Shown here: one piece after another, positions 11,811 through 21,654 of the stretch
Position numbering within the stretch: the stretch's first letter is position 1
Layout of the letters: each line of letters begins with the position of its first letter
NCBI GenBank assembly: GCA_029247365.1
Contig: JAQWLJ010000047.1
Span: 1-64,000 of the forward strand
Length of the DNA: 64,000 nt
Source of the DNA: Acidimicrobiales bacterium
GTDB lineage: Bacteria; Actinomycetota; Acidimicrobiia; Acidimicrobiales; Aldehydirespiratoraceae
Reading direction: 5' to 3'
The notes under the pieces: model-generated
Told to the model about the DNA's origin: nothing
The model's input: only the letters and a program-made list of their open reading frames with translations
Database searches by the model: none
Position numbers and translations under genes: made by a program

Positions 11811-11854
11811 GTTCACGTGAAGTTCGGGCAATAGCCTGATCGGCTTCATGCCGG
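11811..11854 (+). promoter_or_regulatory. PHO-box-like 11-nt repeat array upstream of first pstS
   Basis: Successive 11-nt units GTTCACGTGAA, GTTCGGGCAAT, AGCCTGATCGG, CTTCATGCCGG. Units 1, 2 and 4 match the direct-repeat PHO unit (GTTCAYCC...) known for Streptomyces PhoP. Likely RegX3 target, by inference. Confidence 0.55.
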
Positions 11855-11884
11855 GCAACCTCCTCGAAACCTGAGGTTCCTACC

Positions 11885-13018
11885 GTGCGGTCCATGGATC
11901 AATCCAACCCACGACAGGCGCGCCTGCTCGTTATAACCCTGCTGACTGTTTTCGCTCTGTTCGCTGCTGCGTGCGGCGACGATGACACGAGCGCATCGGG
12001 CGGCACCACTGACACAAGCGCTGCCGACGACACTGCTTCGGCTTCCGACTCGGTCAGTGCCAGCGGCGAACTCGATGGCGAGTTCCTCGTCTCCGGCTCG
12101 TCGACCGTGTATCCGATCGTGCTCGAGCAAGCCGAGGCGTTCGGCGCTGCGAACGGCGGCGTTGCGATCTCCGTGGAAGGCCCTGGCTCCGGTGACGGTG
12201 CCCAGAAGTTCTGCAACGGTGAGGTTCCGATCGCCAACGCCTCCCGGACCTACAAGGACGCAGAGATCGAGATTTGCGAGGCCAACGGCATCGAGTTCAT
12301 CGAGATCCGTCGCGGTATCGACGGCATTTCCGTCGTCACTTCGCCGGAGAACGACGCCGTCGAGTGCGTCAGCTTCAACCAGCTGTACTCGCTGATCTCT
12401 GAGGAGGCCACAGGTTCGGACAGTTGGGCCGACGGCAACGGCCTGCTCACGGAAATGGGTGCCGTCGACGCTAACTTCCCAGATGCCCAGCTAGACGTCT
12501 TCGGGCCTGGTGAAGAGTCGGGGACGTTCGACTCCTTCGCTGAGATCGTTATCGAGTCGGTTGCCAAGGGCAAGACTGGTCTCGACTCCGAGGCCCGCGA
12601 GTTCGTGAAGACGATTCGACCCGACTACACCTCGAGCCCTGACGACAACATCATCGTCGAAGGTATCTCGTCGAGTCAGTACAGCATCGGCTGGGTCGGC
12701 TTCGCCTTTGCGAAGGAAGCCGAGGAGTCCGGTCAGGCCAAGCTTCTCGCGGTCAGCAAGGAAGACGGCGGTGAGTGTGTCACGCCGAGCCCCGGGACCA
12801 TCGCCTCTGCCGAGTTCCCGATCGCTCGCTTCCTCTACACCTACGTCAACGCCGCCGCGGCGAACGACCCGGCAGTGGTCGCGTTCGTCGACTACATGAT
12901 GAGCGCGGAAGGTCTCGAGTCCGTCACCAGTGCCGGGTACATCGATCTGTCGAACGTCGACCAGAGCCTGGCGCAGGCCATCTGGGAGAACCGCACAACT
13001 GGGCGCAGTTGGGGCTGA
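11885..13018 (+). CDS. pstS: Phosphate ABC transporter substrate-binding lipoprotein PstS
   Basis: A 377-aa PstS. The signal peptide ends in a lipobox (LFAAACGDD) and is followed by a Ser/Thr/Asp-rich linker. The phosphate-binding fold begins FLVSGSSTVYPIVLEQAEAF, with phosphate-contact motifs VEGPGSGDGAQKF, ANASR and FGPGEESGTFDSF. GTG 11885 or ATG 11894 could start it. It is separate from the pstCAB operon: after it come a strong terminator and two genes on the other strand. It is a close paralogue of the second PstS 2.1 kb away (shared IRPDYTSSPDDN and IGWVGFAFAKEAEE). High-affinity phosphate capture at the cell surface. Confidence 0.95.
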   Translation: MRSMDQSNPRQARLLVITLLTVFALFAAACGDDDTSASGGTTDTSAADDTASASDSVSASGELDGEFLVSGSSTVYPIVLEQAEAFGAANGGVAISVEGPGSGDGAQKFCNGEVPIANASRTYKDAEIEICEANGIEFIEIRRGIDGISVVTSPENDAVECVSFNQLYSLISEEATGSDSWADGNGLLTEMGAVDANFPDAQLDVFGPGEESGTFDSFAEIVIESVAKGKTGLDSEAREFVKTIRPDYTSSPDDNIIVEGISSSQYSIGWVGFAFAKEAEESGQAKLLAVSKEDGGECVTPSPGTIASAEFPIARFLYTYVNAAAANDPAVVAFVDYMMSAEGLESVTSAGYIDLSNVDQSLAQAIWENRTTGRSWG

Positions 13019-13145: not shown

Positions 13146-13823
13146 TCAGTCGTCAATATCGGTGGCGCCGTCGTCTTGATAGCCCTGGTGCTGGAGTGGC
13201 TCGGTTGCGGTCGTCACGACGCCGGCAATGTTTGCCACGATGCGCTTCCAGTAGCGATACAGAATCGCTCGCGGCACGACCTTGTGCCCCGGCTCCTCAG
13301 AGTGCATGAGCTCACGAATATGGTCCTGCAGTTCGACCTGCAGATCGTTGGTCCGCTTGCGAAGTTCGGTCGCGCCGTCCTCGTCGCCGGCGGCGATGAT
13401 GTCGGCCGCCTGACCGAGCATCTCGCTGATGGTCCGGCGGAAGCCGATCAGCATCTCAAGATCGGGGGCCTCGCTCAGATCGGCGCCGTCCTCGGCGAGA
13501 TACAGGATGTTCTTGTTCTGGTCGCCGATGCGTTCGATCTTTTTTATTAGCAGGATCAGACCCAGTACCTCGCCGATGTCGCTGCTGCCCTGCACGCTCA
13601 CGTGCACCACGAGTTGGCCACGCAGATCCTGCTCGGCTTCGTTGATGCGCTCATCGGTCTGGCGGACGTCTTGGCCAATAGTCTCGACATCGGCCCCACT
13701 CAGCAGTGCGGCAGACGCGAGGTCAAAGCTGTGGCGGGCGTCGGAAACCATCGACACAGTTCGAGCCGTGATTTGATCGAGGCTGTTCTCGCCGTCGCCT
13801 CGGCGGAAGAAGGTCATGACCAT
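13146..13823 (-). CDS. PhoU-like (DUF47) regulator of the Na/Pi transporter
   Basis: 225-aa all-helical PhoU-domain/DUF47 protein. GLILLIKKIERIGDQNKNILYLAE carries an E-R-x-G-D-x-x-x-N motif like the metal-binding PhoU helices. Such proteins accompany phosphate transporters of the PNaS or PiT type and modulate their uptake. It is 40 bp downstream of the Na/Pi cotransporter on the same strand, with AAGGAG six bases before the ATG, so it belongs to that transporter rather than to Pst. Second PhoU-type protein in the locus, apart from the PhoU-kinase fusion. Confidence 0.85.
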   Translation of the reverse strand: MVMTFFRRGDGENSLDQITARTVSMVSDARHSFDLASAALLSGADVETIGQDVRQTDERINEAEQDLRGQLVVHVSVQGSSDIGEVLGLILLIKKIERIGDQNKNILYLAEDGADLSEAPDLEMLIGFRRTISEMLGQAADIIAAGDEDGATELRKRTNDLQVELQDHIRELMHSEEPGHKVVPRAILYRYWKRIVANIAGVVTTATEPLQHQGYQDDGATDIDD

Positions 13824-13863: not shown

Positions 13864-15000
13864 TCATCGGAAGATCGCCACGCCGATCAATGGGATCACG
13901 ATGAACAAGGTGATGACGTACGCAACAGCCATCGTGTGACGTTCGACTGCGAGGTCGGCCATGCGCTCGGCCGCTCGCAAGGGGATCATGCGGATTCGAG
14001 GCATCGGATAGAGGAGCGCGATGCCGATCACATTGAACGTCGTATGCACCAATGCGATTGTCAGCGCGTCGACCGACCCCGATGCCAGCGCAGCCAAGAG
14101 GGCGGTGATCGTGGTGCCTACGTTGGCACCGAGGGTCACGGGGAAGATGTTTCGTAGGGTCACGACACCGGCTGCAGCAAGCGGGACCATGATCGAGGTA
14201 GTGATGCTCGACGACTGCACGGCGACGGTGATCACCAGGCCGAGCACCATCGCAACGGTGCCACCACCACTGCCGAGGACGGCGTTGAGTGAGCGCTCGA
14301 CACGGTCCGCAACGAGCTTCTTCATGTTTTTGGTGATGAAGGTCAGCGCAGCGAGCACGATGACGAGGCCGACGAGGACCATCGATGTGCCGAGGAAGTT
14401 CTCTTCCAACCCCAGCTCGCCGAGGCCGTCTTTCAACCAGCCGACGGGTTCCTTGACCCATTTCTTGATCGGGCTTTTCCACTCACTGCCGGCGGAACCG
14501 CCGAGCGCCTCGGTGATTGAGGTGGCGATGCTCGACAGGGCACCGGTCAGCAGCTCGATCGGGAGGAGGATTGTGACCGCGAGCAGGTTGAAGAAGTCGT
14601 GGACCGTGGCGGCGGCAAATGCCCGCTTGAATTCGTCGGACTGACGGATTGAGCCGAGCGAGACGAGTGTGTTGGTGACAGTGGTGCCGATGTTGGCGCC
14701 CATAATCATCGGGACCGCGGCGTCAACGCCGAGTGCGCCTGAGGCGACAAGGCCGACGACCACCGATGTGCTCGCCGACGACGACTGCACGAGCACCGTG
14801 CCCAGGATGCCAACGAACAGGCCGGCGATCGGGTTGTTGACGCTCTCGAACAGGTTGGCCTGGGTGTCGGCCCCCATCACCTTGATGCCGGATTCGAGGC
14901 TGGAAACGCCGACCAGGAAGATGTAGATCAGCGCGAAAACGAGCACGGACCGTGCCCACGTGGGCAGACCTCGATCGGCTGCCGTCGTGGTCCCCGTCAT
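13864..15000 (-). CDS. Na+/phosphate cotransporter (PNaS/NptA family)
   Basis: A 378-aa membrane protein with about eight hydrophobic helices and the two inverted repeats of the family: GTVLVQSSSASTSVVVGLV and VITVAVQSSSITTSIMVPL, the QSSS motifs that form the substrate path. Low-affinity sodium-driven phosphate uptake is expected. It shares a divergent promoter region with the second pstS, so both could be controlled by the repeat array there. A minus-strand TACGTT lies 26 nt before its ATG, and a GGGAGAG ribosome-binding site precedes it. Confidence 0.9.
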   Translation of the reverse strand: MTGTTTAADRGLPTWARSVLVFALIYIFLVGVSSLESGIKVMGADTQANLFESVNNPIAGLFVGILGTVLVQSSSASTSVVVGLVASGALGVDAAVPMIMGANIGTTVTNTLVSLGSIRQSDEFKRAFAAATVHDFFNLLAVTILLPIELLTGALSSIATSITEALGGSAGSEWKSPIKKWVKEPVGWLKDGLGELGLEENFLGTSMVLVGLVIVLAALTFITKNMKKLVADRVERSLNAVLGSGGGTVAMVLGLVITVAVQSSSITTSIMVPLAAAGVVTLRNIFPVTLGANVGTTITALLAALASGSVDALTIALVHTTFNVIGIALLYPMPRIRMIPLRAAERMADLAVERHTMAVAYVITLFIVIPLIGVAIFR

Positions 15001-15026: not shown

Positions 15027-15032
15027 AACGTA
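15027..15032 (-). promoter_or_regulatory. -10 box of Na/Pi cotransporter
   Basis: Minus-strand TACGTT with a 26-nt leader and a ribosome-binding site before ATG 15000. Confidence 0.4.
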
Positions 15033-15062: not shown

Positions 15063-15106
15063 GTTCGCCAACTGTTTACCTGGAGTGGGTTTGCCGTTCA
15101 TCCGAG
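15063..15106 (+). promoter_or_regulatory. PHO-box-like 11-nt repeat array upstream of second pstS
   Basis: Successive 11-nt units GTTCGCCAACT, GTTTACCTGGA, GTGGGTTTGCC, GTTCATCCGAG, ending 27 nt before the TAGCAT box. Same 1-2-(3)-4 pattern as at the first pstS. Lies in the divergent pstS / Na-Pi transporter region. Confidence 0.6.
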
Positions 15107-15133: not shown

Positions 15134-15139
15134 TAGCAT
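15134..15139 (+). promoter_or_regulatory. -10 box of second pstS (leaderless)
   Basis: TAGCAT, 8 nt, GTG 15148. Sits downstream of the PHO-box-like array, as expected for an activated promoter. Confidence 0.5.
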
Positions 15140-15147
15140 TGCGTTCC

Positions 15148-16275
15148 GTGCACGAACTTCTTCCTCCGAGCCGGTCCGATCGGTTCCGGAGTGTCGGCCT
15201 GATCGTCGGTTTACTTGCGCTGTTCGCGCTGATTTCTGCGCTCGTCAACGATGACGCGTCGGTCACCGTTGTGGCGGCCGAACCCAGCGTCGATGGCTCC
15301 ACCGAGGGTGACGTAGCCCCCGCAGGGCCGTTGGACGGCGAGTTCCTCATCTCCGGTTCATCGACCGTCTACCCGATCGTGCTCGAACAGGCCGAGGCGT
15401 TTAGCGATGCGAACGATGGCGTTGCGATCTCGGTCGAAGGGCCGGGTTCGGGCGATGGCGCTCAGAAGTTCTGCAACGGTGAAGTCCCGATCGCCAACGC
15501 TTCTCGCCTCTACAAGCAGCAAGAGCTCGAAATCTGTGAGGCAAATGGCATTGAGTACATCGAGTTGCGGCGCGGCATCGATGGCATCACCGTGATCAGC
15601 TCGCCGGCAAACGATCGCATCGAGTGCCTGTCGTTCAACGATCTCTATGCCCTTATTTCCGAAGAGGCGAGCGGCTTCGATAGCTGGGCCGACGCCAATG
15701 CCCTCACCTCTCTATGGGACGGCACCGCATTCCCCGATGTCGCCCTCGATGTCTACGGTCCTGGGGAGGAGTCCGGCACCTTCGACTCGTTCGGCGAGAT
15801 CGTCATCGAGGGGGTCGCTAAGGGCAAGACCGGTCTCGACACAGAGTCCCGCGACTTCGTGACGTCGATTCGGCCCGACTACACGTCGAGCCCGGATGAC
15901 AATGTCATCCTCCAAGGCATCGGCGCGTCCGACTACTCGATTGGCTGGGTCGGCTTCGCCTTTGCAAAGGAGGCCGAGGAGGCTGGCGCGGCCAAGCTCG
16001 TGCAGGTTGCCAAAGAAGACGGGGGCTTGTGTGTGAGCCCGACTGAGGAGACGATCGCGTCGGCCGCCTTTCCGATCGCCCGGTTCCTCTACACCTACGT
16101 CAACGCCAACGCTGCCGCGAACGACCCAGCCGTGATCGCGTTCGTTGATTACATGATGAGCGACGAGGGACTCGATGCCGTCAGCTCTGCTGGCTACATC
16201 AACCTCGCCGATTCCGACCAGCTGCGGGCCCAGGCGATCTGGGTGAACCGGGTGAGTGGACCGGCGTGGGATTGA
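15148..16275 (+). CDS. pstS: Second PstS phosphate-binding protein, no lipobox
   Basis: 375-aa PstS paralogue with the same motifs as the first (FLISGSSTVYPIVLEQAEAF, VEGPGSGDGAQKF, YGPGEESGTFDSFGE). It heads the pstCAB operon. The N-terminal hydrophobic segment GLIVGLLALFALISALVND has no cysteine lipobox, so it is either a cleaved secreted protein or anchored by an uncleaved N-terminal helix, unlike the first copy. The track starts at TTG 15139; I choose GTG 15148, which puts TAGCAT eight bases upstream. Two gap bases separate its stop from pstC. Confidence 0.92.
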   Translation: MHELLPPSRSDRFRSVGLIVGLLALFALISALVNDDASVTVVAAEPSVDGSTEGDVAPAGPLDGEFLISGSSTVYPIVLEQAEAFSDANDGVAISVEGPGSGDGAQKFCNGEVPIANASRLYKQQELEICEANGIEYIELRRGIDGITVISSPANDRIECLSFNDLYALISEEASGFDSWADANALTSLWDGTAFPDVALDVYGPGEESGTFDSFGEIVIEGVAKGKTGLDTESRDFVTSIRPDYTSSPDDNVILQGIGASDYSIGWVGFAFAKEAEEAGAAKLVQVAKEDGGLCVSPTEETIASAAFPIARFLYTYVNANAAANDPAVIAFVDYMMSDEGLDAVSSAGYINLADSDQLRAQAIWVNRVSGPAWD

Positions 16276-16277
16276 CG

Positions 16278-17717
16278 ATGCCCACCGAGTCGGCCGGCCT
16301 CTCGGCGGAGCCGCCGACGGTCTCGCTTCCGTCGGTGAACTCCCGAGCCGTCGGCGCAGTTCTCGAACCGGCGACCTTCCTGGTCGTCGCTGCTGCGGTC
16401 GCTGTGGCCGAGCACTTCATTGAGGGGCCGATCGGTGGTTTCGGTCCATCGGCGTTCTGGGTCGCCTTCTGGGCCATGGCGATGTGGAGCGCGTGGCACT
16501 GGCCTGCTGCCCAGACCCTTGCCTCCTCGTTCTCGGGCAACCACCTCGCCATGCTCGACGGGCGTCCCGCATCGCCCCTCACCCTCGCTGCTCGTGAGCT
16601 GACTCGAGCCGGGTTCCTCTACGGTCTGCCGTTGCTCGCCATCGAGAAGAACATCGTGCCGGTGCTGGCAATGATGGCGTTGTCAGGTTTTGTTATCGCC
16701 AAGGCACCTGGTCGTCGGGCGCCGTGGGACTTCGTGGTCGGCACCGTTGTGATCGAGGATTTCGGCGGACCGGCGGCGGTTATCGAACGTACTGAAGTCC
16801 ATTCGGTGGCTGACCTCCAGCTCAACGAGTCGCGCAATCGGCAAAACGTCCGGGCTCGAGCCCTCGTGCTCGCGTTCGGCATGACGTCGGTCCTGGTGAG
16901 TGCCTTGATCGTCTGGAGCATTTTCAGCGAGGCATGGGAGTTCTTTGCCGCCCAAGAGTTCAGTTGGTCGAGCCTGCAGGGCATTGGCTGGTTCCCACGC
17001 CGCGGCATCTTTGATGTCTGGACCCTCTTCATCGGCACCCTCTGGATCACCGGCATCGCGATTGCCCTCGCCGGTCCCGTTGGCCTGGGTGTGGCCTTCT
17101 ACCTCTCCGAATACGCAAGCCCACGGGTCCGCCGCACGGTCAAGCCGATCATCGAGACCCTGGCCAGCATCCCGTCGGTTGTACTCGGCCTCTTCGCCAT
17201 CAGCTTCATCACTCCACAGGTCCTGCAGCCGATCGACGGATCGATTGGCTTCGCGTCGCTGCTCGCGGCCGGCCTCGGTGTCGGAATTCTGACCGTCCCG
17301 ATCATCGCCTCGATCTCTGAGGACGCGATGCGAGCTGTTCCAATGGAGCTCCGGGAAGCGAGCTACGGCCTCGGCGGTCGCCGGGTGACCACATCGCTTC
17401 GGGTTGTGTTCCCTGCGGCCCTGTCGGGTATCTCCGCAGCTTTCATCGTGGGTATCTCCCGCGCCATTGGCGAGACGATGGTGGTCTACATCGCCGCCGG
17501 TGGTTCGGGCGGTGCGGTCCTCGAGTACGACGCTCGCAACGAGGGCCAGACCTTCACCGCAGCGATGGCATCCCTTGGTGCCGGCACCGACTCGGTCGCC
17601 GGTGTAGGCATCGCATTCCAGAGCCTCTACGCCCTCGGCGCGCTGTTGTTCGTGATCACACTGCTGCTCAACGTCTTGTCCGACGCGATCGTTCGCCGTT
17701 TCCGGCAGGCGTACTGA
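16278..17717 (+). CDS. pstC: Phosphate permease PstC with N-terminal RDD-like domain
   Basis: A 479-aa protein of two parts. Residues ~15-165 form a membrane domain resembling the RDD family: AQTLASSFSGNHLAMLDGRPASPLTLAARELTR then GRRAPWDFVVGTVVIED matches the RDD pattern of QTLGK...DGRP...RE......R...D...GTVVI. From ~190 on is a standard PstC: IIETLASIPSVVLGLFAI, the EAA loop MELREASYGLGGRRVTT, and GISRAIGETMVVYIAAG. PstC is normally about 300-340 aa, so the front domain is an addition. ATG 16278 is the first in-frame ATG after the pstS stop. Its stop overlaps pstA by one base. Confidence 0.9.
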   Translation: MPTESAGLSAEPPTVSLPSVNSRAVGAVLEPATFLVVAAAVAVAEHFIEGPIGGFGPSAFWVAFWAMAMWSAWHWPAAQTLASSFSGNHLAMLDGRPASPLTLAARELTRAGFLYGLPLLAIEKNIVPVLAMMALSGFVIAKAPGRRAPWDFVVGTVVIEDFGGPAAVIERTEVHSVADLQLNESRNRQNVRARALVLAFGMTSVLVSALIVWSIFSEAWEFFAAQEFSWSSLQGIGWFPRRGIFDVWTLFIGTLWITGIAIALAGPVGLGVAFYLSEYASPRVRRTVKPIIETLASIPSVVLGLFAISFITPQVLQPIDGSIGFASLLAAGLGVGILTVPIIASISEDAMRAVPMELREASYGLGGRRVTTSLRVVFPAALSGISAAFIVGISRAIGETMVVYIAAGGSGGAVLEYDARNEGQTFTAAMASLGAGTDSVAGVGIAFQSLYALGALLFVITLLLNVLSDAIVRRFRQAY

Positions 17718-18634
17718 TGCACGACCGCCAGACCGTCTCCCTTGACTCCCTGCGGGCCCGCCGCGGTGATGATGCAGCAGGTCATGTCTTCTTCCTGCTG
17801 ATCACTGCGGCGGTTGGACTTGCGTTCTTCATCGTCGCTGCTGTCGGCGTCGACGTGGTTGTTGAAGCATGGGACATCCTCGCCAACCGGCTGTGGGACT
17901 TCCTGGCCTCCCCGAGCTCGGCCGACGAAGCCAAGTCCGGCGTCTCGCAGGGCATCCGGGGCAGTGCGCTCATCGCAGCGTTCGTGATCCTGACGTTCCC
18001 GGCCGGGGTCGGCGCCGCGATTTACCTTGAGGAATACGCCGACGACACGTGGCTGTCGCGGCTGATACAGGTGACGGTGCGAAATCTTGCCGGTGTGCCG
18101 TCGATTGTTTACGGCCTGCTCGGCGTCGCCGTGTTCGTGAAGGGGCTCGACGGCCTCACTGGTGGTCGCAGCGTCATTGCGGCTGGCCTTGCGATTGCGG
18201 TCCTTGTGCTCCCAGTGATCGTCATCACTGCGGGCGAGGCGCTTCGCGCAGTCCCGACGCCACTGCGCGAAGGTGCCTACGGTCTTGGCGCAACGCAGTG
18301 GGAGGTCATTCGGACGCAGGTGCTGCCTGCTGCGCTGCCCGGCATCCTCACCGGCACCGTCCTTGGCGTTGCGCGTGCGCTCGGTGAAGCCGCTCCGCTA
18401 CTCGTGATCGGCGCTGTGGGCTTCTACACCACCGGTAACCAGGACTTTGTCGAGCAACTCCGGGGGGCGTTCACGGCATTGCCGATGAACATCGCCAACT
18501 ACGCGCGGCTGCCAGCCGAGACCTGGCGAGGCCATGCCGCGGCGGCGAGCTTTGTGCTGCTCGTCCTTGTGTTCTTGATCAATCTCGTGGCGATCGTCGT
18601 CCGAGCCCGAATCTCCAAGCGACTCGGTCGCTGA
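17717..18634 (+). CDS. pstA: Phosphate ABC transporter permease PstA
   Basis: 305-aa permease with six predicted membrane segments. Family motifs: [40 protein letters not shown] and the EAA loop [18 protein letters not shown], then [20 protein letters not shown]. It pairs with PstC to form the channel. Start ATG overlaps the pstC stop by one base (TGATG), indicating coupling; pstB follows after 23 bp. Confidence 0.96.
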
Positions 18635-18657
18635 CCCCTGCCCGAGCAGAAGTGAGA

Positions 18658-19497
18658 ATGATGACAATGACCGAATTCGCCATCACCGCCGGTGTGAAAG
18701 CTGCCTCCGGAACGGGGGCCAACGATGTGTTTACCGTCGATGGCCTTAATGTCTTCTACGGCGATCATCACGCCGTCTCTGAGGTCGACTTGGCCGTCAA
18801 GGAGCGCGAGATTACGGCCTTCATCGGGCCGTCGGGCTGCGGCAAGTCGACGGTGCTGCGCTGCTTCAACCGCATGAACGATCTCATCGATATCGCCCGG
18901 GTGGAGGGCACCGTTCGCTACCACGGCGTCGACCTTTATGACGAGGCCGTCGATCCGGTGGCAGTGCGGCGTCGTATCGGCATGGTGTTCCAGAAACCGA
19001 ACCCGTTCCCGAAATCGATCTTTGACAACGTCGCCTACGGACCGCGTGTCGGTGGTCGAAAAGGCAACCTTGACGAGGTCGTCGAGCGCTCGCTTCGTAG
19101 CGCCGGTCTCTGGGACGAAGTGAAGGACCGCCTCAGTGAGTCGGCCCTCGGAATGTCGGGTGGTCAGCAGCAGCGCCTCTGCATCGCCCGCGCCATCGCA
19201 GTAAATCCCGATGTGCTCCTCATGGACGAGCCCTGCTCGGCCCTTGACCCGATTGCCACCGGCGTGATCGAGGAACTCATGAAGGAGATTCAGAGCGAGT
19301 ACACGATCATCATCGTGACCCACAACATGCAGCAAGCGGCCCGAGTGAGCGACCGAACGGCGTTCTTCACCGCCGAGATCGACGAGCGCTCAGGGCAGCG
19401 GCGGGGCAAGCTGGTCGAGTTCGAGGAGACCGGCACGATCTTTTCGAATCCCGGCGACGAACGCACCGAGGCGTATGTGACCGGCCGCTTCGGCTGA
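18658..19497 (+). CDS. pstB: Phosphate ABC transporter ATPase PstB
   Basis: 279-aa ATPase of the Pst importer. Walker [11 protein letters not shown]-loop [20 protein letters not shown], signature [14 protein letters not shown], Walker [14 protein letters not shown] and H-loop [13 protein letters not shown], all typical PstB sequences. Start lies in GTGAGAATGATGACAATG; ATG 18658 or 18661 are equally plausible. Followed after 14 bp by the PhoU-kinase fusion gene, in the place where phoU usually sits. Confidence 0.97.
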
Positions 19498-19511: not shown

Positions 19512-20945
19512 ATGGAATCTAGTGAGATCCGATCCCAACTTGATGAGCGGCTGGCGCTGATCCAAGCCGACCTCGTCCAGATGATGGCGACCGTTGCCAC
19601 CCGGGTCGGCGAGGTCACGTCAGCGATGCTCGAAGGCGATATCGAGACCGCCGACCGATTGATCGCCGGCGATGACGAGGTCGACCTTCTGTCGCTGCGC
19701 GTCGAAGAGGGCTGCGTCGAGACGCTGATACGCGAGCAACCAGTGGCATCCGACTTGCGCTTCGTGGTCGCCGCAATCCATATGAACAGCGATATCGAGC
19801 GTTCGGGTGATCTCGTCGCCAACATCGCCAAGGCGGTAGGCCGGCTGCAGGGCGCTCACCCGGACCATCATGTGCGCGATCTGGTCGCCCGCATGTCGTC
19901 GGAGGCACAGACCCTTCTTCGTCGAGCGTCGGAGTCGTTTGTGACCCGTGATGCCGAACTCGCGGCATCGATCGACGAGCTTGACGATCTCCTCGATGAC
20001 CTCCATTACCGATACATCCAGCACGTCATTGCCGACGCTCGACGCGGCGATCTCGACCCACAGCAGTCGCTGCAGCTTGCGCTCGTCGGCCGGTTCTACG
20101 AACGGATCGGCGACCACGCCGAGAACATTGGAGAACGAGTTCGCTACATCGTCGATGGCTGGCTGCCCGAGGCCCAGGCGGCCGAGCGGGCACAGGCCCG
20201 CTTAGAAGCCGGCGAGCTGAAGCCGCACCGCGGCCTCGCCGTCATCGACTCGATTGCCGAGGAGCGTCGCATCGATGCCATCCGGCGTGACTTCGTGGCC
20301 AATGTCTCCCACGAACTCAAGACGCCCGTTGGCGCAATGAGCCTGCTGGCCGAGACCCTCGTCGGCGAGACGGAGCCCGCCGACCGTGATCGGCTGAGCG
20401 ACATGCTGCAGCGCGAGGCCAAGCGGGTGGAGGACATCATCGATGACCTGCTCGAGCTCACCCGTCTCGAAGAGGGCGAAAGCGAGACAGAAAAGATCAA
20501 GGTCTCGAAGATCGTCGCCAAGTCGGTCGACAAAGTCCGCACCTTTGCCGACGGTATGCATGTGCAGCTCGTGGTCACCGGCGACTCAGGCGAGGAGAAA
20601 GTCAAGGTCGATCGGCGAGCTGTTGTACGAGCGCTCACGAACCTGATCGACAATGCTGTGCGCTACTCCGAGGCTGACCAGCAGGTCACGGTTGCGGTCG
20701 AGGTGCTCGAGCACGTCGTGGCAATAAGCATCAAGGACGACGGTGTCGGTATCCCTCGTGCTGAACTCGAGCGCGTGTTTGAACGGTTCTACCGCGTCGA
20801 TCGGGCCCGGAGTCGCGAGACCGGTGGTACCGGCCTCGGCCTAGCGATCGTTCGGCACGTCGCGGAAAACCATGGCGGGCGAGTGCTTGTCGAATCGAAG
20901 CCGGGCGATGGTTCGACGTTCACCATCGAGCTGCCGCGACTCTAG
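19512..20945 (+). CDS. PhoU-SenX3 fusion: phosphate-sensing soluble histidine kinase
   Basis: 477 aa. Residues 1-~218 are a complete two-repeat PhoU: ERSGD at 96-100 and ERIGD at 197-201 supply the two E-R-x-x-D metal motifs, with IREQPVASDLRFVVAAIHMN the usual PhoU helix. After a ~25-residue charged linker a SenX3-like kinase core follows: H-box FVANVSHELKTPVGAM (His267), N-box NLIDNAVRYS, G1 DDGVGIP, F-box ERFYRVD, G2 GGTGLGLAIVRH. There is no membrane helix, PAS or HAMP. It starts 14 bp after pstB with a GGAGGA ribosome-binding site, and its stop is 10 bp before regX3. Known: PhoU links Pst activity to the kinase. Inferred: here the link is covalent, and the kinase is cytosolic, docked to Pst through PhoU. 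Confidence 0.93.
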   Translation: MESSEIRSQLDERLALIQADLVQMMATVATRVGEVTSAMLEGDIETADRLIAGDDEVDLLSLRVEEGCVETLIREQPVASDLRFVVAAIHMNSDIERSGDLVANIAKAVGRLQGAHPDHHVRDLVARMSSEAQTLLRRASESFVTRDAELAASIDELDDLLDDLHYRYIQHVIADARRGDLDPQQSLQLALVGRFYERIGDHAENIGERVRYIVDGWLPEAQAAERAQARLEAGELKPHRGLAVIDSIAEERRIDAIRRDFVANVSHELKTPVGAMSLLAETLVGETEPADRDRLSDMLQREAKRVEDIIDDLLELTRLEEGESETEKIKVSKIVAKSVDKVRTFADGMHVQLVVTGDSGEEKVKVDRRAVVRALTNLIDNAVRYSEADQQVTVAVEVLEHVVAISIKDDGVGIPRAELERVFERFYRVDRARSRETGGTGLGLAIVRHVAENHGGRVLVESKPGDGSTFTIELPRL

Positions 20946-20955: not shown

Positions 20956-21654
20956 ATGACCGACCTGCTGAGTGTCTTGGTCGTCGATGACGAGCCGGCT
21001 TTTCGTGAAGGGCTGCGCCAGGCGCTGAAGCAGGAGGGGTTCGTGGTGCACCTCGCTTCCGATGGTGAGGAGGCCCTCGAGGTCTGGCGGGCCTATCACC
21101 CCGACATCGTTTTGCTCGACGTGATGCTGCCCCGCATGTCGGGCATCGATGTGTGCCGCGAGATTCGTGCAGTCGACGACACGCCGGTGATCATGGTTTC
21201 GGCCCGCAACGAGGAGATCGACGCGGTCGTCGCGCTGGAGGTTGGTGCCGATGACTATGTTGCCAAGCCGTACCGCGTCCGTGAACTGGTCGCCCGAATG
21301 CGAACAGTGCTGCGCCGCGCTGGACTTCGAAACGCAGCGCCCGGCACCGATGGTTCGGTGCTCGAAGTCGGTGACATCTCACTCGACAAGGAACGGCACG
21401 AGGTGTCGGTGGCTGGTGAGGCCGTACAACTCCCGCTGAAGGAGTTCCAGCTTCTCGCTCTCCTGATGGAGAACGCAGGCATCGTGGTGACTCGCCAGAC
21501 CCTGATCAACCGAGTGTGGGGCTTCGATTATGTGGGTGATACCAAAACGCTCGACGTTCACGTCAAGCGCCTTCGGGCGAAGGTCGAGCCGTCACCCGAC
21601 CGCCCGGAGCGTCTCGTCACCATCCGCGGGCTTGGCTACAAGCTGAACTCCTGA
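20956..21654 (+). CDS. regX3: OmpR-family response regulator RegX3/PhoB-type
   Basis: 232 aa. The receiver domain has acidic DDE (VVDDEPAF), phospho-acceptor Asp in IVLLDVMLPRMSG, the Thr/Ser in MVSARN and Lys in VAKPYRVREL. The C-terminal winged helix has LPLKEFQLLALLMENAG, TRQTLINRVWGFDY and TLDVHVKRLRAKVEPSP with RGLGYKL at the end, very like mycobacterial RegX3. The track ORF begins inside the kinase gene; ATG 20956 is the family start. Cognate regulator of the PhoU-kinase fusion by position. Predicted to bind the 11-nt repeat arrays in front of both pstS genes. Confidence 0.95.
   Translation: MTDLLSVLVVDDEPAFREGLRQALKQEGFVVHLASDGEEALEVWRAYHPDIVLLDVMLPRMSGIDVCREIRAVDDTPVIMVSARNEEIDAVVALEVGADDYVAKPYRVRELVARMRTVLRRAGLRNAAPGTDGSVLEVGDISLDKERHEVSVAGEAVQLPLKEFQLLALLMENAGIVVTRQTLINRVWGFDYVGDTKTLDVHVKRLRAKVEPSPDRPERLVTIRGLGYKLNS

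Follow-up and report, generated by a model that had tools for sequence, protein, structure and literature searches.

GTTCACC is the published core of the Streptomyces PhoP box (PMC4415409), and in S. coelicolor PhoP activates, and does not repress, the low-affinity pitH2 (PMC7866108). In Microlunatus, PolR binds GTTCACnnnnnGTTCaC (PMC6754071). On the sensing side, PhoU of M. smegmatis has been reported to be Pst-independent and to act through the PAS domain of SenX3 (PMC12301784), and a survey of 926 genomes found Pst also in 99.4% of those bearing PhoU (PMC13170248). Here we describe an array of GTTCACC-like repeats at the second pstS promoter of an Acidimicrobiales bacterium, in a window of 64,000 nucleotides (the whole stretch of DNA analysed, part of a 3.11-Mb, 75-contig assembly). 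Judged by its sequence and conservation, the array is a real PHO box of the PhoP/RegX3 type: an operator of ordinary type with an unusually rigid layout. The more surprising element is a PhoU-histidine kinase fusion encoded in the operon that follows.

The genes run in the order guaA, a TIGR03086-like ORF (named from sequence reading), pstS1, a PhoU-like gene and NaPi on the minus strand, pstS2, pstC, pstA, pstB, the fusion and a regX3-like gene. Those that matter here are:

13146..13823, minus strand: PhoU-like accessory protein, downstream of NaPi (PF01895, 54 bits; TIGR02135 below cut-off)
13864..15000, minus strand: NaPi, Na/Pi symporter family (PF02690; NF037997 above cut-off)
15148..16275, plus strand: pstS2, phosphate-binding protein with a GTG start (PF12849, TIGR02136)
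16266..17717, plus strand: pstC, named from sequence reading, conserved order and homology
17717..18634, plus strand: pstA, from order and homology
18652..19497, plus strand: pstB, from order and homology
19512..20945, plus strand: PhoU-histidine kinase fusion of 477 amino acids (PF01895 twice, PF00512, PF02518), the probable sensor of the circuit
20956..21654, plus strand: RegX3/PhoP-type response regulator (PF00072 and PF00486), the probable ligand of the array

The array falls within the 147-bp intergenic stretch that separates the NaPi ATG (15000, minus strand) from the pstS2 GTG (15148), and thus does lie between divergent phosphate-uptake genes, as the preliminary description had it. The order NaPi, array, pstS2-pstCAB, fusion is kept in four relatives (G007, G021, G015 and G014), and in a fifth, G027, this order holds as far as the contig end. 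The elements within the intergenic region are:

15027..15032, minus strand: predicted NaPi -10 hexamer, TACGTT, 30 nt from the array edge
15063..15073, plus strand: PHO unit 1, GTTCGCCAACT, 6 of 7 matches to GTTCACC
15074..15084, plus strand: PHO unit 2, GTTTACCTGGA, 6 of 7, an exact 11-nt step from unit 1 and kept in relatives
15085..15095, plus strand: register 3, the skipped register or spacer, GTGGGTTTGCC, 2 of 7
15096..15106, plus strand: PHO unit 4, the proximal unit, GTTCATCCGAG, 6 of 7 and in register
15134..15139, plus strand: predicted pstS2 -10 hexamer, TAGCAT, with TANNNT conserved at equal distance in relatives

The four 11-nt strings starting at 15063, 15074, 15085 and 15096, and the TAGCAT that follows the array after a 27-nt gap, are exactly as first reported, and the sequence comparisons also bear out the preliminary identification of a PhoP/RegX3-type site at the second pstS promoter. 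The reading of them as a four-register array holds for registers 1, 2 and 4, which match the core, and breaks down at register 3, which scores only 2 of 7 here and a mean of 1.7 of 7 in relatives. Units 1 and 2 are adjoining 11-nt direct repeats with a GTTCACC-like core, at least two of which make a PHO box, but the core is not found in all four registers, as a four-unit site would have it. Four equal registers are thus ruled out, register 3 matching the core at chance level, and we regard the array as three units plus one skipped register. Over both strands of the 64-kb window, the top-scoring pair of GTTCACC-like 7-mers at an 11-nt step is the array itself (12 of 14; p=0.0016 in shuffles of the 147-bp intergenic region). 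The triple at 0, +11 and +33 scores 18 of 21, a value reached by 0 of 5000 shuffles of that region; a triple of at least 18 occurred in 0 of 40 shuffled windows, and the second-best triple of the real window scores 16.

The same layout recurs in relatives. A perfect GTTCACC-N4-GTTCACC stands at the orthologous place in five of them (G007, G021, G015, G014 and G027), each followed by one more unit, GTTCAYC-like, at +32 or +33, and across the arrays of 13 relatives the mean matches at registers 0, 11, 22 and 33 are 6.6, 6.5, 1.7 and 6.2 of 7. The register-3 spacer may be 10 nt long. Both sequence and geometry are conserved across several genera, and the array accordingly has the position and the conservation expected of a PHO box, upstream of a phosphate-gene promoter and retained in relatives.

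The promoter side is more rigid still. From the start of unit 4 to the -10 hexamer the distance is 38 nt in 10 of the 10 pstS2 promoters tabulated (our own and those of G007, G021, G015, G014, G027, G008, G003, G001 and G006, where the hexamer is TAATGT), and the same 38 nt separate the proximal unit from the -10 in the pstS1 promoters of G021, G004 and G072. Because this distance is constant while the unit spacing is +32 or +33, the proximal unit is locked to the promoter and the distal pair free to slide by one base. The start codon lies 8-9 nt past the -10 in divergent pstS2 promoters, 7 nt past it in pstS1 promoters and about 12 nt past it in G003, G001 and G006. That most start codons lie only 7-9 nt beyond the -10 suggests leaderless mRNAs, and the pstS2 mRNA of our genome, with its GTG 8 nt past the -10, is probably one. 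The first pstS gene has a fainter version of the same site:

11811..11854, plus strand: weaker pstS1 array, GTTCACGTGAA GTTCGGGCAAT spacer CTTCATGCCGG, with 6, 4, 1 and 4 of 7 matches
11881..11886, plus strand: pstS1 -10 hexamer, TACCGT, 7 nt before the ATG at 11894

This array (p=0.011 in shuffles of its own intergenic region) shares the register of the pstS2 array and is stronger in orthologues; its proximal unit stands 37 nt from the -10, and the motif model described below returned no match to it in our genome. The two PstS paralogues of the window (11894-13018 and 15148-16275) are 71% identical. In G001, G003, G006 and G008 the pstS pair is in tandem with no NaPi between, and an array, in some cases weak, precedes each gene.

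How far does the motif reach? We built R1, a model of sequence alone, from 13 promoter arrays of other genomes. In our genome it ranks the array first (E=0.059), ahead of a match inside a gene (E=0.34), and it gave no credible site beyond the pstS2 array that would point to a wider regulon there. Over 51 genomes of the family, matches at E<0.01 precede pstS, pstB or the phoU-kinase fusion, also in seven genomes outside the training set (G072, G026, G032, G023, G028, G016 and G033); in L143 the box overlaps only a predicted 5' extension of the fusion ORF, whose homologous part begins downstream. Matches at E 0.01-0.1 are a mix of pstS promoters (genus g5) and chance matches in genes. Enrichment of the motif before phosphate genes, which the preliminary description had named as a test, is thus seen across the family at E<0.01, but our own genome adds no further convincing site. 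A two-unit pattern with up to 2 mismatches returned 41 sites there, compared with 9 for the reversed-pattern control, and most of the sites examined were intragenic; we rejected a wider regulon in this genome. Two further pairs were seen in relatives. At about position 1501 of L079, L112 and L123, a PHO-like pair, which could be chance, lies 46 nt ahead of a GAPDH gene of the ArsJ type, and the transporter gene after it resembles arsJ (arsenate detoxification; named from reading); as a regulatory site it is unproven, lying in or beside the end of the upstream coding region without a third unit. A GTTCACGGTGTGTTCACC-like pair, conserved in 5 genomes of its genus (L106, L110, L113, L115 and L116, at about 1501), stands 91 nt ahead of the gene for a different response regulator, which a sensor kinase gene follows; the pair may reflect cross-regulation, or may belong to some other regulator that shares the core.

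A genuine PHO box should have a cognate PhoB-family regulator in the same genome, and one is encoded at 20956-21654 (PF00072 plus PF00486); its RegX3 subtype, as opposed to another PhoB-family type, is assigned from operon context. It stands at the end of the operon and is the natural candidate to bind the array. The kinase before it is less conventional. Its N-terminal part is a full-length PhoU (TIGR02135 at 163.4 bits against a cut-off of 130.25, two PF01895 stretches), followed by HisKA at 258-322 and HATPase_c at 367-476. A SenX3 or PhoR kinase has a membrane segment and a PAS domain before the kinase core; here domain profile search gave no PAS match, PhoU standing in that place, and no hydrophobic segment was seen on reading the sequence, so that the kinase is apparently soluble. 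No canonical PhoU other than the fusion was found in the genome, the sole other PhoU-domain protein being the accessory beside NaPi. The fusion occurs in several genera, in genomes of families f1, f18 and f28, and 18 aligned sequences share invariant PhoU and kinase residues, including the phospho-acceptor H267. In other Acidimicrobiales phoU is a gene of its own, and the kinase is SenX3-like, with both a PAS domain and a hydrophobic N-terminus (L048, PAS_4). The AlphaFold model (mean pLDDT 75) shows PhoU helices, a long dimerisation helix pair and the ATPase domain, with low confidence in the linker at 234-262. Among the matches listed, no solved chain spans the two halves, and we found no description of a PhoU-kinase fusion in the literature searched, although such reports may still exist.

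In five relatives (G026, G032, G023, G033 and G017; L139, L140, L143, L145 and L137) the array is flanked by NaPi and the fusion gene, and the interval holds no pst gene. A search for PstA found nothing in the incomplete assemblies of G032, G023 and G033, and only weak ABC-permease matches in G017 and G026; because the assemblies are incomplete, the absence of Pst is likely rather than proven. We lean slightly towards the view that the array is the output of a circuit sensed by a single, apparently soluble PhoU-kinase fusion with PhoU as the sensory domain, and that the array-NaPi-fusion module runs Pst-free in G032, G023 and G033. If Pst is truly absent, the fusion would signal without it, in agreement with the M. 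smegmatis report (PMC12301784), and these fusions would contrast with the near-universal PhoU-Pst pairing of the 926-genome survey (PMC13170248). The fusion thereby bears on the debated identity of the phosphate sensor, PhoU or the Pst transporter: array-NaPi-fusion lineages are a natural test of whether phosphate sensing by PhoU needs Pst, and fusions from genomes without detected PstA are direct material for it.

From sequence, conservation, geometry, gene order and domains, we infer binding, phosphorylation, the direction of control and the transcript starts in the following mechanism. Under phosphate limitation the fusion (19512-20945) would phosphorylate the RegX3/PhoP-type regulator (20956-21654), one pair of which would bind units 1 and 2 head to tail. 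Unit 4, two helical turns on, would position one more molecule or pair at a fixed 38 nt from the -10. The bound regulator would activate the probably leaderless pstS2 promoter and with it pstSCAB and the genes of its own sensor and regulator, a positive feedback loop that PhoU would damp when phosphate is sufficient. NaPi is possibly co-activated, since its -10 keeps a helically phased distance to the other array edge.

That the array is a PHO operator read by the regulator at 20956-21654, and activates pstS2-pstCAB-fusion-regX3, strikes us as highly probable. The core is that of Streptomyces PhoP (PMC4415409) and is shared by the PolR site (PMC6754071). A model built only from other genomes ranks the array first in its own (E=0.059), the perfect GTTCACC pairs stand at the orthologous place in five relatives, the 38-nt distance recurs in 10 of 10 pstS2 promoters and in the pstS1 promoters of three relatives, matches at E<0.01 precede pstS, pstB and the phoU-kinase gene family-wide, even in genomes outside the model, and the downstream operon encodes both a PhoB-family regulator and its kinase. 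On the other side, each unit of our array carries one mismatch, the own-genome E is only 0.059, and the genome holds no second convincing site. Geometry adds a further difficulty: the E. coli pho box lies nearer the -10 than the present array, whose end, 27 nt upstream of the -10, leaves the contact with RNA polymerase unexplained. Another regulator of the same family could also read the core, as PolR does in Microlunatus. The mismatches, and the match in three of four registers only, would suit a chance pattern without function, yet we give that reading next to no credence: the triple score was reached by 0 of 5000 intergenic shuffles, and the conservation of sequence and geometry over several genera refutes chance.

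Granted an operator, in which direction does it act? In each of the 12 divergent regions examined, the NaPi -10 reads TACGTT (TACCTT in one) and stands at 27-31 or 38-39 nt from the edge of the array; its identity is supported by the NaPi start codon lying 10-12 nt past TACGTT in most relatives. Since the two spacing classes differ by about one turn, the hexamer appears helically phased to the array (resultant length 0.80 at a 10.5-bp period, in related genomes whose spacings are non-independent). For both promoters the array is located immediately upstream of the -35 region, and it overlaps neither core promoter, which suits activation better than repression of NaPi, and co-activation or activation of pst alone better than opposite control. 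The chances seem to us evenly poised that a single bound complex works both ways, co-activating pstS2 together with NaPi, which would extend the operator reading above: the NaPi -10 keeps its two distances, one helical turn apart, in all 12 divergent regions, and G004, without a pst operon at the locus, keeps units 1 and 2 at 28 nt from the NaPi -10. Against this, the genomes are related and their spacings not independent, arrays of the PhoB type have a polarity, no box was seen at the unlinked NaPi genes of G282 and G161 and only a weak one at that of G263, and the G004 junction is possibly an assembly join. There is a real though smaller likelihood that the array activates the pst side only and that NaPi merely adjoins it, under a constitutive promoter of its own; unit 4 keeps a locked distance to the -10 on the pst side, the array before pstS is kept where NaPi was not found (G003, G001, G006 and G008), and unlinked NaPi genes mostly lack a box, but the phased distance of the NaPi -10, seen in several genera, speaks against it. 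The preliminary description had suggested that one array could control the two systems in opposite directions, which would here mean activation of pstS2 and repression of NaPi under starvation. The divergent arrangement is all that favours this, the array is placed ahead of the NaPi -35 region and not over the core promoter, and low-affinity pitH2 of S. coelicolor is activated by PhoP (PMC7866108); we consider this version improbable, and the geometry does not support it.

Two observations belong beside this question. In G004 (L045, 12476-12700) a 3' regX3 stub directly follows PHO unit 2, and the pst operon, the fusion and most of regX3 are gone, a gap that may be a natural deletion or an assembly join. 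NaPi was also considered as an independent member of the Pho regulon and set aside: among unlinked NaPi genes of family f28, two have no box and one a weak box.

The operator carries the actinobacterial PHO-box code into the Acidimicrobiales and gives it an exact layout of two adjacent units, one skipped register and a last unit that starts 38 nt before the -10 of a probably leaderless mRNA. With so defined a layout, the regulon can be predicted in uncultured relatives of Ca. Microthrix. The operator resembles the Streptomyces PHO box (PMC4415409, PMC7866108) in its core, its 11-nt unit, its place upstream of pstS and the unequal strength of its units, but it runs unit, unit, skip, unit, holds its proximal unit at a constant 38 nt from the -10, and is situated between divergent NaPi and pstS2. 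The Microlunatus PolR site (PMC6754071) has the same core and 11-nt period, and stands before pstS and pit of a polyphosphate-accumulating actinobacterium; PolS-PolR is described as DevS-DevR-like (PMC6754071), whereas the regulator here is of the PhoB family and is encoded in the pst operon. With mycobacterial SenX3-RegX3 (PMC12301784) the circuit shares a RegX3-like regulator and a SenX3-like kinase core, and there PhoU sets the kinase/phosphatase balance. Mycobacterial SenX3, however, carries a membrane segment as well as a PAS domain that is essential, and works with a separate PhoU (PMC12301784), whereas here PhoU replaces both in one polypeptide.
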